A stretch of DNA of 42,324 bases from Thermoanaerobacterales bacterium. Its GTDB lineage: Bacteria > Bacillota > Desulfotomaculia > Desulfotomaculales > JASEER01. The DNA lies in assembly GCA_030019475.1 (NCBI GenBank), contig JASEER010000021.1, positions 1 through 42,324 on the forward strand, in the 5' to 3' direction. The translations under genes and the position numbers were made by a program. Below, piece after piece: positions 22,707-34,657 of the stretch; the stretch's first letter is position 1; every line of letters starts with the position of its first letter. The notes under the pieces were generated by a model. It was not told the DNA's origin. It saw only the letters and a list, made by a program, of their open reading frames with translations, and ran no database searches.

Positions 22707-22946
22707 TTATTCGTCCTTGGTCGTCGTCTCGCTCTGGCGGCTGGCCAGGCAGTACATGGTGGTGCTGCCGGTCATGAAGTAGGCGACCGTCCCCTCGTTC
22801 ACCAACTCGTTGCAGGCCTTCTTAACGTCCCTCAGGCCGGCGCCGGGAACCTTATCCTTCACGGCCTTTTCCAGGTCCTTGAAGTAGTGCTTGGACTTCT
22901 TCGCGTTGGTGAGGTACTCCACGATAATCTTCTTGATCTCGTCCAC
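22707..22946 (-). CDS. dsrD: Dissimilatory sulfite reductase accessory protein DsrD
   Basis: This 79-residue winged-helix protein (MDEIKKIIVEYLTNAKKSKHY at the start, then a LRDVKKACNELVNEGTVAYFMTGST segment) matches DsrD in size, motif and position after dsrB. Published work describes DsrD as an allosteric activator of DsrAB rather than a DNA-binding regulator. Its presence supports sulfite reduction in the reductive direction, because dsrD is generally absent from sulfur oxidisers. The gap to dsrB is 34 bp with a GGGGAGG ribosome site. Confidence 0.95.
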   Translation of the reverse strand: MDEIKKIIVEYLTNAKKSKHYFKDLEKAVKDKVPGAGLRDVKKACNELVNEGTVAYFMTGSTTMYCLASRQSETTTKDE

Positions 22947-22980: not shown

Positions 22981-24168
22981 CTAGTCTACGCCACCTGCCG
23001 CCTTGGAAACCGCCCATGCGGCGTCCGTGTATTTGAACAGGGTGCTCGTCCGGTACGTATCGTATGCCAGGCGGTGGTCGTCCAGAAGGTGGTCGGTAAA
23101 GGGCAGGCCGGTCAGCTCGAAGAACTTCTCCCAGCCGATCCGCTCGGCCCAGTCACCAAGCCGCTCGTACTTGTTAGCATGCGTCGCGTAGACCTCGACG
23201 ATACGCTTGACGGTCTCACACACCTCGGGGAACCGCGGGAAGTTGTTCGGCAGGAAGGGCACGACGACCTTCGAGAACTTCGGCGCCGAGATGCGGTTGG
23301 AGAGCTTGCCGCCCGCCAGCACGACCACGCCGTCGCCCTCCTTGTCGGACAGCGGCAGGGCCGCACACATGGTGTAGCAGTTGCCGCAGAACATGCAGCG
23401 CTCGTCCTTGATCTTGACCGTCTTCTTTCCGTCCGGAGTCGCGCCGGGGGAGATGGCGGCCTTCGGGCAGGAGGCGATGACCGTTGGAATCTCGCACATC
23501 TTGGCCAGCCACTCGTGGTCGATGATCGGCGGCTTGCGGTGGTAGCCCAGCAGTGCGATGTCCGAGCAGTGCACGGCGCCGCACATGTTCAGGCAGCAGG
23601 CCATGGAAACGCGGAGTTTCGCCGGCAGGGTCATGCTGCCGAAGTAGTTGTATAGTTCATCCATGACCGCCTTGACCATCGAAGAGGCGTCGGTGGCCGG
23701 CGTGTGGCAGTGGATGTAGCCCTGGGTATGGACGATGTTGGTGATGCCGGCGCCCGTCCCGCCGACCGGGAACTTGTTGGCGCCCGAGAAGAACTTGCGG
23801 CTCTCAAGCTCCTTCTTAAGGGCCTCGACCTTCTCCGGGCTGTCGACGAGGAATTCGATGTTGTTGCGGGTGGTGAAGCGGACATAGCCGTCGCAGTGCC
23901 TGTCGGCGATATCGCAGATTTCGCGGACGAAGGCCGCGCTCATAATGCGCATCCCGCCGGCGCGCACCGTGTAGACCTTCTCGCCCGTCTCGGAGACGTG
24001 CACCAGCACGCCGGGCTCCAGGACCTCATGATAGAGCCACTTGCCGTAGTTCCTCTGGATGATGGGCGGGAAGAAGTCCCAGTAGTAGCGCGGCCCGATA
24101 TCGGTTATGCGGTTCTCCTGCGGATTATCAGGGTTGTATACCCCGAACTTCGTGGTAGAGAGGCCCAT
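22981..24168 (-). CDS. dsrB: Dissimilatory sulfite reductase beta subunit
   Basis: This 395-residue partner of DsrA forms the alpha2beta2 sirohaem enzyme that reduces sulfite with transfer of sulfur to DsrC. The cysteine set for the sirohaem-[4Fe-4S] region is visible as CHTPATD (Cys154) and [11 protein letters not shown] (191-201). The ferredoxin domain has [11 protein letters not shown] (258-268). A GGAGGGTG ribosome site precedes the ATG. All key residues appear intact. Cotranscribed with dsrA (70-bp gap) and dsrD. Confidence 0.98.
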
Positions 24169-24238: not shown

Positions 24239-25672
24239 CTACCGCGCGTGCCGCTTCCGGTAGTCGCTGATGTCGCGCGCAAAGCCGCCCGGCACGTCCT
24301 CGGCTTTCCAGAAGATGTACGGGTTCTCCCGCGGCTTCCAAACGTGCTGCGGCGCGGGCGGCAGCCCGACGGCTTCCAGGAACTTCGGCAGGCCGACGCG
24401 CTGGATCAATTCACCGATGCGCTCGCGGTTCTTGCCCTCTTCCATCCAGAACTCCTGCGCCTTGTCGATGACTTCCTTGATGTTGTCGTAGGGCGGCTCG
24501 GCCTTCATGAAAGGCACGATCATGGTCGCCATCTGGGCGCCCTCAAGAATGGGGGCCTTGGCGCCGCAGAGGATGGTGACGCCCGTATCGACACCCGGCC
24601 GCAGGGCACGCGGCATGGTGTTGATGCAGTGCATGCAGCGGACGCAGTCGGCGTCGTCGATGGTCAGCACGCCGTCCTCGTACTTCATGCAGCCGCTCGG
24701 GCAGCGGTCGACGACTTCCTTCCGGATGTCGAACTTGCCCCACTCGCGGCCGCGGTGCGCGCCGGCGTTCGGGACGATGTCGCCCTGAACGTAGCCCCGG
24801 ACGGCGTCCTGGTCGATGCGGATGTTGTCCCGCCACGTGCCGATGAAGGAGAGGTCGGAACGGGCGATGGACGCCACGCAGCCGTTGGGGCACCCGTCGA
24901 ACTTGAACTTGAACTTGTACGGGAACATCGGGCGGTGCAGTTCGTCCTGGTAGTGCATCGTCATGTCGTAGCACATTTCCTGGGTGTCGTACAGGGCGAA
25001 CTCGCAGCGGGCCTTACCGACACAGCAGGACGGCGTGCGCAGGTTGGAGCCCGAGCCGCCGATGTCCTGGCTGAGGTGGTGGGCGCATTCCTGGAAGATC
25101 GGCTCCAGCTGCTCGGTGAAGGTGCCGAGCAGGACGATGTCGCCGGTGGAACCGTGCAGGTTGAAGATACCGCTGCCGCGGAACTCCCAGAGGTCGGCCA
25201 GCGCCCGGAGGAAGTCGGTCTTGTAAAACTTGCTGGCCGGCTGGTTCAGGCGGACCGTATGGAAGTGAGCCACGCCGGGGAACTTGTCCGGCACGTCGGA
25301 GTAACGTCCGATGACGCCGCCGCCGTACCCCTGTACGCCGACGATCCCGCCGTGCTTCCAGTGGGTCTCGCCGTGCTCGAAGGAGAGTTCGACCTGGCCG
25401 AGCAGGTCCTCCACGACGTCCCGGGAGATCATCATGCGGTCATCGGCGAGCTTTCTCCGGCGCAGGGCCTCGACCTTGAGGTCGGCCACGAAGCTGGGCC
25501 ACGGGCCGGACTCGAGCTGCTCCAGCATGGGGATGTCATACTTGACCTTAAAACTCTTAAGCTCCTCGTCAGAGGGGTTCTGCAGCTCCTCGTCGGTGTA
25601 GATGCGGAGTTCCTGGTAATTAAGTTCCTTTTGGGGGACTTTCGGTTTGAATTCGAAAGACATAGCGACCAT
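24239..25672 (-). CDS. dsrA: Dissimilatory sulfite reductase alpha subunit
   Basis: This subunit of about 477 residues has the sirohaem/[4Fe-4S] motifs CVGKARC (C-X5-C, about 217-223) and CPNGC (C-X3-C, about 261-265). A ferredoxin insertion has cysteines at about 324-349 (CPSGC and CVRCMHC). Length is slightly above typical DsrA. Start candidates are TTG 25675, ATG 25672 and ATG 25663. AAGGAGG ends only 4-5 bases before ATG 25672, and ATG 25663 is the more distant choice; I use 25672. Transcription probably starts near 25988, leaving a ~316-nt leader. Confidence 0.97.
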   Translation of the reverse strand: MVAMSFEFKPKVPQKELNYQELRIYTDEELQNPSDEELKSFKVKYDIPMLEQLESGPWPSFVADLKVEALRRRKLADDRMMISRDVVEDLLGQVELSFEHGETHWKHGGIVGVQGYGGGVIGRYSDVPDKFPGVAHFHTVRLNQPASKFYKTDFLRALADLWEFRGSGIFNLHGSTGDIVLLGTFTEQLEPIFQECAHHLSQDIGGSGSNLRTPSCCVGKARCEFALYDTQEMCYDMTMHYQDELHRPMFPYKFKFKFDGCPNGCVASIARSDLSFIGTWRDNIRIDQDAVRGYVQGDIVPNAGAHRGREWGKFDIRKEVVDRCPSGCMKYEDGVLTIDDADCVRCMHCINTMPRALRPGVDTGVTILCGAKAPILEGAQMATMIVPFMKAEPPYDNIKEVIDKAQEFWMEEGKNRERIGELIQRVGLPKFLEAVGLPPAPQHVWKPRENPYIFWKAEDVPGGFARDISDYRKRHAR

Positions 25673-25994
25673 CAAACCTCCTTCTACCTGCTCAACTGCA
25701 GAGCTTGAATGCCCGGCATCTCAGCGTGATGCCCGGCAACCGGCTTTGATACCCGGCGCTCAGCGCCGACGACTGTGTTTTCCGCACACCTCCTCCTCAG
25801 CGAACTGGCTGACTGACCAAAAACAATGCCCACCCCGCCGTATCCTGGTAAAGGATACCACAAACCGCCCCTCCCACGCCCCGCCCGCTGCAATGCGCGA
25901 ATACGGGCCCGGCGTGCAAATACCAGGCGGTAAAAACTTGGGCGCAACCTTGCTCTTGAGCGCACAAAGACCGGCGCCCCATGTGCTCACCGTT

Positions 25995-26024
25995 ACTATA
26001 GTACAGGCCGAAAGGCCTTGTCAA
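25995..26024 (-). promoter_or_regulatory. dsrA promoter with a palindrome in its spacer
   Basis: Read leftward: TTGACA (26024-26019), an 18-bp spacer and TATAGT (26000-25995, 5 of 6). The spacer contains AGGCC, TTTC, GGCCT (26018-26005), a 5-bp inverted repeat ideally placed for a regulator. Start of transcription is expected near 25988. Confidence 0.75.
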
Positions 26025-26157
26025 TTGCCTCAAGACAAATGTCCATTACCAGTGAGATCCACGCCACCGCGGCGCGAAATCATCGGTCAGCGGCCGCAAG
26101 AGCCCGTAGCCCGGGCACAGCCCGATTAATAACCTCGGGGGCGACTTCACAAACGGC

Positions 26158-26186
26158 TTGACCGTCTCACAGGGAAATGCTATGTT
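26158..26186 (+). promoter_or_regulatory. Putative promoter of ferredoxin-dsrMK
   Basis: TTGACC (26158-26163, 5 of 6), a 17-bp spacer and TATGTT (26181-26186, 4 of 6). Transcription would start near 26193, giving a leader of about 314 nt before the ferredoxin gene. Confidence 0.6.
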
Positions 26187-26506
26187 GCCTCCGACGGGTT
26201 ATGCGCCCGGATTTGCTTAAAAAAGTTCTTATCGCCAAGAAGGAATCTTGCCGAGCATAACGAACAAAAAAATATGGGGTTGTGTAGCCGTTCAAGTCCG
26301 TCCGGATAGGTCTGCGCGGATGACGGGGCGTTCGCATTCCGGCCCTGTTCTATGGGAGGCGGCTTGTTTCTTCTTCCACGTCCCGGCTCGTGATCTGGGG
26401 GGCGTGGCACCGGTGTTGCCCGGGGGGATAAGGCGCCGGTTTGCGCGGATGCGGACTGACTGACGACCAAACCACTACTACATGCAGTTCAAGGAGGCGT
26501 ATGGCA

Positions 26507-26692
26507 ATGTTCATGGTGTCCATCGACGAGAGCAAGTGCGACGGCTGCGGCGAGTGCGTCGAAGCTTGCCCGGCGAGCGTTCTGGTCCTGCAGGACGGGA
26601 AGTGCCACGTCACGAACCCGACCGACTGCCTGGGTTGCGAGACCTGCGTCACCGTTTGCCCGAACGGCGCTCCCACGTTGCAGGAACTCTAG
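26507..26692 (+). CDS. 2[4Fe-4S]-type ferredoxin
   Basis: This protein of about 61 residues has two clusters of ferredoxin cysteines: CDGCGECVEACP near the N-terminus and CLGCETCVTVCP near the C-terminus, the classic bacterial 2[4Fe-4S] pattern. It is cytosolic and is likely an electron carrier for DsrAB or DsrMK, judged from its place at the head of dsrMK. ATGs at 26501, 26507 and 26513 are all possible; 26507 has AAGGAGG at 9 bases and gives MFMVSIDESK. Confidence 0.92.
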   Translation: MFMVSIDESKCDGCGECVEACPASVLVLQDGKCHVTNPTDCLGCETCVTVCPNGAPTLQEL

Positions 26693-26717: not shown

Positions 26718-26816
26718 GATACCGGGAGGTGAAAGAGAGCGAAGAGAAAGAAACCCCGTCCGGCAGGGGACGGCTGTGCCGTTATCGCCGGAATGTCTGT
26801 AAGTTCTCCCGGTATC
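26718..26816 (+). promoter_or_regulatory. Unrecognised structured RNA element between ferredoxin and dsrM
   Basis: GATACCGGGAG (26718-26728) and CTCCCGGTATC (26806-26816) form a perfect 11-bp closing stem. Inside are a 25-nt almost pure-purine strand (26729-26753) and a nested hairpin: CCGGC (26760-26764) with GCCGG (26787-26791), enclosing ACGGC (26770-26774)/GCCGT (26778-26782). Only a short, delayed T-run (CCTTTTAGG) follows. It lies in the 204-bp gap before dsrM and matches no class I know. Confidence 0.5.
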
Positions 26817-26896: not shown

Positions 26897-27664
26897 ATGG
26901 AGGTCTTCGTCGGCCAGGTAATGCCTTACATTACCGTGGCCATCTTCCTCGGCGGCATCACGTGGCGCATCTGGCGCTGGATGATCCCGAGGATCGTACA
27001 CAACATCACCCTGTCACCTTTCGCCAGCAACTGGGTGGAGGCCGTCCTGCACCCGGTGATCCAGCTTTTGACCATGTGGAACGTCCTGAAGTTCGACCGC
27101 GGGCTGTGGCCGGGCGCTTTCCTGCTCCATTTCGCGTTGATCAACGTCCTGGGCGGGCACGTCGTCGGTTTCTATACCCTCGGCGAGCAGTTCAACTGGG
27201 TCGCGCCGCGCATCATCACCGCCGAGCAGAGCACAGCGGCGTCCGATTTCCTGGGCACCATGTTCGGTCTGATTTTCCTCCTTGCGCTCGTATGGCTCCT
27301 GTACCGCCGCTTCGCCGTCGAGAAGGTCAAGGCGGTTTCCGCCACCAGCGACTACCTGCACCTGGTGCTGCTGATCACCATCGCCTGCATCGGCAACTAC
27401 ATGCGTCTCGTCCCCGAGGCGCACATGACCTACGCCGAGGTGCGGGAATTCCTGGCCGGCCTGTTCCTCTTCCAACCGCTGCCGTTCCCGGATAACGCGT
27501 TCTTCCTGTATCACTTCCTGTTCGTGCAGATCCTGATGATCGTCTTCCCGTTCTCCAAGCTGATGCACACCTTCGGCATGTTCTGGGAACGGTGGATCGT
27601 CAACCGCCCGTACAAGGAATGGCCCGTGGGCCTGCCCGGTGTGCAGGTCCCCTTACAGAAGTAG
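26897..27664 (+). CDS. dsrM: Sulfite reduction-associated membrane cytochrome DsrM
   Basis: This protein of about 255 residues is NarI-like: about six transmembrane helices with paired His residues in helices (VEAVLHPVIQLL, FLLHFALINVLGGHVVG, FLYHFLFVQ, SKLMHTFGMF) that fit two haem b ligations. It takes electrons from menaquinol and passes them to DsrK. ATG 26897 has GGAGGAGGTG 6 bases upstream; the GTG at 26888 overlaps that site. Length is that of the shorter, Gram-positive DsrM, and no dsrJOP genes follow. Confidence 0.93.
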   Translation: MEVFVGQVMPYITVAIFLGGITWRIWRWMIPRIVHNITLSPFASNWVEAVLHPVIQLLTMWNVLKFDRGLWPGAFLLHFALINVLGGHVVGFYTLGEQFNWVAPRIITAEQSTAASDFLGTMFGLIFLLALVWLLYRRFAVEKVKAVSATSDYLHLVLLITIACIGNYMRLVPEAHMTYAEVREFLAGLFLFQPLPFPDNAFFLYHFLFVQILMIVFPFSKLMHTFGMFWERWIVNRPYKEWPVGLPGVQVPLQK

Positions 27665-34417: not shown

Positions 34418-34448
34418 AAGAACAGAAAAACACATACCCACCGTAGTT

Positions 34449-34657
34449 CTTCGTTAGGTGAGGCTACTGCACGGACACATGCCGCTGCCCGGAAACGTCG
34501 AGAGACGCTAACGGGTCAACAGGTACTACCGGCTTAAGGTTCTACCTATGCGGCTGAGATCTCCTCTCTAGCCGTGGAGAGCCAAAGCTGGGACGAGTGG
34601 AGAAGGCGTGGGTGCGCTCACTTAGGCCTTCCCGATCTTGCCGCGAGAAGGCTTTTT
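34449..34657 (+). promoter_or_regulatory. M-box (ykoK) Mg2+ riboswitch with terminator
   Basis: The conserved M-box segments occur in order: CTTCGTTAGGTGAGGC, GGACACATGCCGCTGCCCGG, ACGTCGAGAGACGCTAACGGG, CGGCTTAAGGTTCTACCTATG, CGGCTGAGAT and GCCAAAGCTGGGACGAGTGG. The expression platform is a terminator, GCCTTC (34626-34631)/GAAGGC (34647-34652), followed by TTTTTG. In this class Mg2+ binding favours the terminator, so corA expression should fall when Mg2+ is plentiful. Confidence 0.95.

Follow-up and report, generated by a model that had tools for sequence, protein, structure and literature searches.

How sulfate-reducing bacteria control their dsr mRNAs is a matter about which, to our knowledge, little is known, and dsr transcripts are commonly used as markers of activity in the environment. 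The question is raised by a contig of 42,324 nt (the window, by which we mean the whole stretch of DNA analysed), in which the first-pass annotation had read two long, opposed 5' leaders, one ahead of dsrA and the other ahead of a ferredoxin gene (fdx) and dsrMK, as a sign of control at the RNA level. Here we ask which parts of these leaders are conserved and what they might do.

Genes and promoters of the dsr locus

The host of the window is a Desulforudis-like member of the order Desulfotomaculales, whose closest relatives by DsrA sequence are 88% and 85% identical. Leftward from position 25672 run dsrA (dissimilatory sulfite reductase alpha; 24239-25672, minus strand; TIGR02064 above cut-off), dsrB (22981-24168, minus strand; TIGR02066 above cut-off), and dsrD (22707-22946, minus strand; PF08679), and rightward from position 26501 run fdx, dsrM, dsrK, and dsrC, with the identities backed by profile searches. 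The product of fdx (26501-26692, plus strand; PF00037) is a small 2[4Fe-4S]-type ferredoxin. The identity of dsrM (26897-27664, plus strand; PF02665) is somewhat less firm than that of the other genes, because its top NCBIfam match, which is DsrM, falls below the curated cut-off. Elsewhere in the window, an M-box (magnesium) riboswitch lies at 34443-34608 (plus strand; 144 bits).

The promoter previously proposed for dsrA, TTGACA-18-TATAGT (25995-26024, minus strand), was borne out. It matches the consensus at 11 of 12 positions, and 100 shuffles of the sequence farther up never reached its score. The dsrA genes of nine relatives (L004, L005, L006, L064, L030, L040, L139, L118, and L036, the last with the variant GTGACAAG) are likewise preceded by TTGACAAG-type promoters. 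From the predicted start at about position 25988, the dsrA leader would extend over approximately 315 nt (25673-25988, minus strand) and include dsrA's own Shine-Dalgarno (SD) sequence, AAGGAGG (25677-25683, minus strand). The dsrA leaders of near relatives with TTGACAAG-type promoters measure 169-231 nt, and a weaker promoter form in L031/L032, TTGACAGA, gives leaders of 160-169 nt, so that the range in relatives is 160-231 nt overall. The leader in the window is thus the longest among those compared, owing to about 100-150 additional nt at its 5' end. This additional segment contains the GTATCC/GGATAC hairpin noted in the first-pass annotation, which does exist (25840-25859, minus strand) and is absent, together with its segment, from the shorter L031/L032 leaders. 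Given the strength of the dsrA promoter and its recurrence in relatives, the long dsrA leader is likely to be genuine and a conserved trait. In the SURF_60 genome (L002/L031), a short stretch about 300-400 nt upstream of dsrA has a translation that resembles the N-terminal part of DsrA and is perhaps a gene remnant.

The fdx side of the locus fared differently. The promoter initially assigned to fdx-dsrMK, TTGACC-17-TATGTT (26158-26186, plus strand), is weak, with 9 of 12 consensus matches, and no counterpart was recognised by eye in the two nearest relatives. The sequence AGGAATCTTGCCGAGCATAACGAA (26241-26264, plus strand), which is located between this promoter and fdx, has the form AGGAAT-N14-CGAA and agrees with the sigma-H consensus (AGGA(A/T)T-type -35 and CGAA-type -10). 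Ten of the 11 genomes compared have this form, with a spacer of exactly 14 nt, ahead of fdx-dsrMK, and it also precedes dsrA or fdx-dsrA in 31 of the 58 loci whose DsrA identity is ~71% or more. The sigH gene was found in all 12 genomes tested, and the host has a related site, AGGATTCTCTTTCCCGGTGGCGAAA, 63 nt upstream of a gene whose product is SpoIIAA-like as judged by eye. The sites thus resemble the sigma-H promoters of Bacillota (the spo0H regulon) in their fit to the consensus at fixed spacing, in the related site before a SpoIIAA-like gene, and in the presence of sigH, and differ from them in standing before dsr genes; the literature searched yielded no data on sigma-H in sulfate reducers. 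The sigma-H-type site is the better candidate for the fdx promoter. Sites of this type before fdx-dsrMK and, in other genomes, before dsrA hint that a transition-phase sigma factor may direct the transcription of sulfate-respiration genes. From this site the fdx leader in the window would be roughly 230 nt long. The distance from the site to fdx shrinks to 102-129 nt in seven relatives, and a long fdx leader would therefore be a feature of this lineage rather than a conserved trait. Of the two long, opposed leaders, therefore, the one before dsrA stands, and the one before fdx probably arose from a misplaced promoter.

A remote Shine-Dalgarno sequence in the dsrA leader

When the regions before dsrA are aligned, a second SD-like sequence stands out, most often GGGAGGAGGTG or GGAAGGGGGTG. 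It precedes dsrA by about 60-125 nt and is not the SD that belongs to dsrA itself, which lies at about -10. In the window, this remote SD is GAGGAGGAGGTG (25787-25798, minus strand), and its core, AGGAGGTG (25794-25787), has the position -122 from the dsrA start in the comparison. The 16S rRNA of the host ends in GGCTGGATCACCTCCTTTCT, as expected for an anti-SD sequence. Remote SDs were scored by their duplex energy with the 16S 3' end, relative to dinucleotide shuffles and to a neighbouring control region. Among 53 loci with DsrA at least 71% identical, anti-SD binding of -12 kcal/mol or stronger was found between -135 and -40 in 45 loci, compared to 2 in the control region, and a rank against shuffles of 0.05 or lower was reached in 32 loci, compared to 4 in the control region; the set had been thinned to reduce similarity, and some common ancestry remains in these counts. 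By group, a strong remote SD is present in 38 of 50 Bacillota loci, in all 15 non-Bacillota loci at or above 69% DsrA identity, and in 9 of 36 non-Bacillota loci below that value. A remote SD is missing from most Desulfovibrio-type loci, and roughly one in four Bacillota loci has no strong match. Variation between A and G is found opposite U of the anti-SD, and positions that face C are nearly invariant, a pattern that the site finder itself favours.

The remote SD appears not to serve an adjacent start codon. Of 51 elements with a DsrA identity of 69% or more, 2 are followed by a start codon at a distance of 4-11 nt from the core, compared to 14.7 expected, and none by ATG, compared to 4.3 expected; the expectations derive from the rest of the spacer, and the counts are affected by shared ancestry. 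The purine-rich sequence that directly follows the remote SD contributes to this scarcity. An N-terminal extension of DsrA that would reach the remote SD is excluded in the window by an in-frame stop between the element and dsrA. The predicted unpaired probability of the remote SD is unremarkable (0.36, compared to a leader mean of 0.43). One feature of STAB-SD elements, a 5' UTR sequence strongly complementary to the anti-SD and set apart from the SD of the gene itself, is found here. Thus, sequence comparison establishes the presence and conservation of a remote SD in dsrA leaders across two phyla, in Bacillota and in non-Bacillota, and a role of the dsrA leader at the RNA level is likely because so specific a leader element has been conserved across them.

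Related elements before other genes

The dsrM gene is also preceded by a remote, non-initiating SD, CCGGGAGGTGA (26722-26732, plus strand), separated by 31 nt from the fdx stop and by 173 nt from dsrM. Relatives, whose fdx genes were located via dsrM, show comparable arrangements. By a strict rule, ACCGGGRGGTGA lies between fdx and dsrM in five of them (L148, L149, L154, L155, and L156), and in four others (L150, L151, L152, and L157) a non-initiating element is positioned upstream of fdx instead. In total, 10 of 11 genomes have such an element before dsrM or its fdx; the one outside the strict rule, L153, has a CCCGGGGGGGTG form between fdx and dsrM with TTG 11 nt downstream. In the window, part of the dsrM-leader SD is included in a perfect 11-bp inverted repeat (26718-26816, plus strand; arms GATACCGGGAG at 26718-26728 and CTCCCGGTATC at 26806-26816), which could sequester the SD. 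No complementary arm was seen by eye in the relatives, and the repeat is therefore specific to the window.

Upstream of aprB, 9 of 17 genomes have strong sites (-14.7 to -18.7 kcal/mol) and 5 have weaker ones (-11.1 to -11.9 kcal/mol), the host being among the latter at -11.9 kcal/mol; the remaining 3 have no site within 140 nt. Remote SDs before sat are sporadic. Compared to the positions of open reading frames across the 42-kb window, clear intergenic matches to the non-initiating pattern occur only before dsrA and dsrM. In a sample of 840 kb of the host genome, the remote SD of dsrA is the strongest of 211 leaders scored, 14 of which reach -14 kcal/mol, although the set of 211 gives only an approximate background, with some false starts in it, because gene calling relied on a simple home-made hexamer method. 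The second strongest of the 211 belongs to the leader of a gene of the TauE/SafE family (sulfite exporter; G000:C10:20528-21838, corresponding to L229:528-1838, minus strand).

Possible functions of the remote Shine-Dalgarno sequences

The first-pass annotation had proposed that the dsrA leader acts through a small ligand, a small RNA, or a protein. A structured riboswitch, an sRNA target, or a protein-binding regulatory RNA would account for the length of the leader and for its moderately stable fold (z -2.69 relative to shuffles, compared to -0.35 for the fdx leader, which is no more stable than its shuffles), and near relatives share blocks of primary sequence around the remote SD. However, a search of both leaders against Rfam matched no family, in agreement with the first-pass annotation, which recognised no established riboswitch class in either. 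Consensus folding of full dsrA leaders from ten relatives yielded no structure (0 kcal/mol), spacer alignments in three groups yielded at most one 5-bp helix, and the conserved, covarying secondary structure by which riboswitches are recognised was not found among the relatives. The comparison of leaders brought out a conserved sequence element without a shared structure, and we regard a structured riboswitch, an sRNA target, or a protein-binding RNA as very unlikely; what endures of the original proposal is a likely role of the leader at the RNA level. Regulation by CsrA was considered and rejected, since the host, a metagenome-assembled genome (MAG) with a completeness of 95.7%, has no CsrA (PF02599), and CsrA is missing from 17 of 25 genomes. 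The sequence CTGACTGAC, which had been reported as a motif common to both leaders, does occur at 25809 and 26456, but its two copies have opposite orientations with respect to their transcripts. By our estimate, chance alone would yield about one exact 9-mer pair in a stretch of 834 nt, and the meaning of CTGACTGAC as a shared motif was rejected. Between the remote and proximal SDs, the dsrA leader also contains three 11-nt copies of a ATGCCGGGCAT-like sequence at an exact 20-nt spacing (25709-25759, minus strand, from the sequence and the leader alignment), where L031/L032 have one matching stretch as judged by eye.

Other readings assign the remote SD a part in translation. It could start a short leader peptide, for example from an internal GTG, and so govern dsrA by attenuation or translational coupling. 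An in-register GTG is contained in 50 of 62 elements, and in some loci, for example L050, L056, L049, and L006, the frame that it opens stops close to the SD or the start of dsrA. However, this GTG follows the nearest upstream purine SD by about 2 nt, which is too close for normal initiation, its frame varies from 2 to 100 codons across loci with no peptide in common, L032 and L057 carry GTA in its place, and proper start codons are depleted downstream of the element; we therefore judge a leader peptide to be improbable. That the remote SD is a ribosome standby site, loading 30S subunits that move on to a structured dsrA start and raising translation rather than mRNA lifetime, is also unlikely, although strong anti-SD complementarity without a start codon, together with a comparable placement ahead of a second SD in many loci, would suit such a site. 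The gap of roughly 50-110 nt is long for this mechanism, and in several genomes a comparable element precedes dsrM by 111-268 nt. The least probable arrangement, in our view, is a switch in which a pyrimidine segment between the two SDs, ACTCCTTA, pairs with either of them, so that 30S occupancy would set dsrA translation. Segments of the ACTCCTTA type occur in 10 of 15 non-Bacillota leaders tested (ACTCCTTA in Desulfobacterota), but complementarity of the spacer to the remote SD does not exceed that of shuffles (median rank 0.51), complementarity to the dsrA SD passes 0.05 in only 4 of 15 leaders, and nothing of the kind was found in Bacillota, the group of the window included.

We consider it somewhat probable that the element in the dsrA leader is a 5' mRNA stabiliser resembling STAB-SD, at which a bound 30S subunit blocks RNase J. 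In Bacillus, a strong SD without an initiation codon in the 5' UTR is a known stabiliser, and the 30S subunit bound to it halts RNase J1 (PMC4113751; PMC3997798). By analogy, a 30S subunit would dock on the remote SD of dsrA without starting translation and would stop the 5'-to-3' trimming by RNase J, so that the long primary dsrA transcript would be cut back to the remote SD and the dsrAB(D) message would be stabilised, as is that of cry3A by its STAB-SD; both the protection and the trimming are steps that we infer. The anatomy of the locus, with a long primary leader, a docking site, a short spacer, and the gene, fits the Bacillus stabiliser. Like elements stand before dsrM and, in most genomes checked, before aprBA, and remote SDs may therefore be a shared stabiliser of sulfate-respiration mRNAs. 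The host encodes RNase J (TIGR00649 above cut-off, G000:C4:57595-59229), as do 24 of 25 genomes in total, host included. RNase J also occurs in Desulfovibrio-type genomes without the element and so does not set carriers apart; neither it nor the accessibility prediction adds support for a stabiliser.

The closest known counterpart is the STAB-SD of Bacillus thuringiensis cry3A, a non-initiating SD ~129 nt upstream of the start codon within a longer primary leader (PMC4113751). The cry3A and dsrA leaders are alike in their complementarity to the anti-SD and in the presence of RNase J. By contrast, stabilisation and the block to RNase J1 were proven experimentally for cry3A, and the dsrA element is known from its sequence; moreover, elements of the dsrA type belong to sulfate-respiration operons, occur between cistrons (fdx-dsrM) as well as in leaders, and extend to Desulfobacterota. 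In the ermC, aprE, and hbs leaders of Bacillus, a ribosome bound near the 5' end protects the downstream mRNA from RNase J (PMC3997798). Whereas hbs uses the SD of the translated gene itself, dsr leaders keep a separate SD without a gene. HcpR of Desulfovibrio, which regulates sat and apsAB, also acts on sulfate-respiration operons, but it is a transcriptional operator system, and dsrAB is absent from its predicted regulon (PMC545781). The literature searched, with subscription papers outside its reach, held nothing relevant on regulatory RNA or SD elements in dsr leaders. Thus, STAB-SD is a known kind of device, and its setting in dsr leaders is likely to be both new and widespread.

A broader reading, which we offer tentatively and hold to be possible rather than probable, is that non-initiating docking sites in the dsrAB, fdx-dsrMK, and aprBA leaders of Bacillota and Desulfobacterota tie mRNA lifetime to the availability of 30S subunits. 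Together with sigma-H-type promoters in Desulfotomaculales, such sites would allow these mRNAs to persist in slow-growing or non-growing cells. High levels of dsrA transcripts have been reported in Desulfosporosinus at zero growth (PMC6372793), and leader stabilisation, if it occurs, would bear on those transcripts. It would also extend a Bacillus-type stabiliser to core energy metabolism and to another phylum, and the abundance of dsr transcripts would then partly mirror mRNA lifetime rather than transcription.
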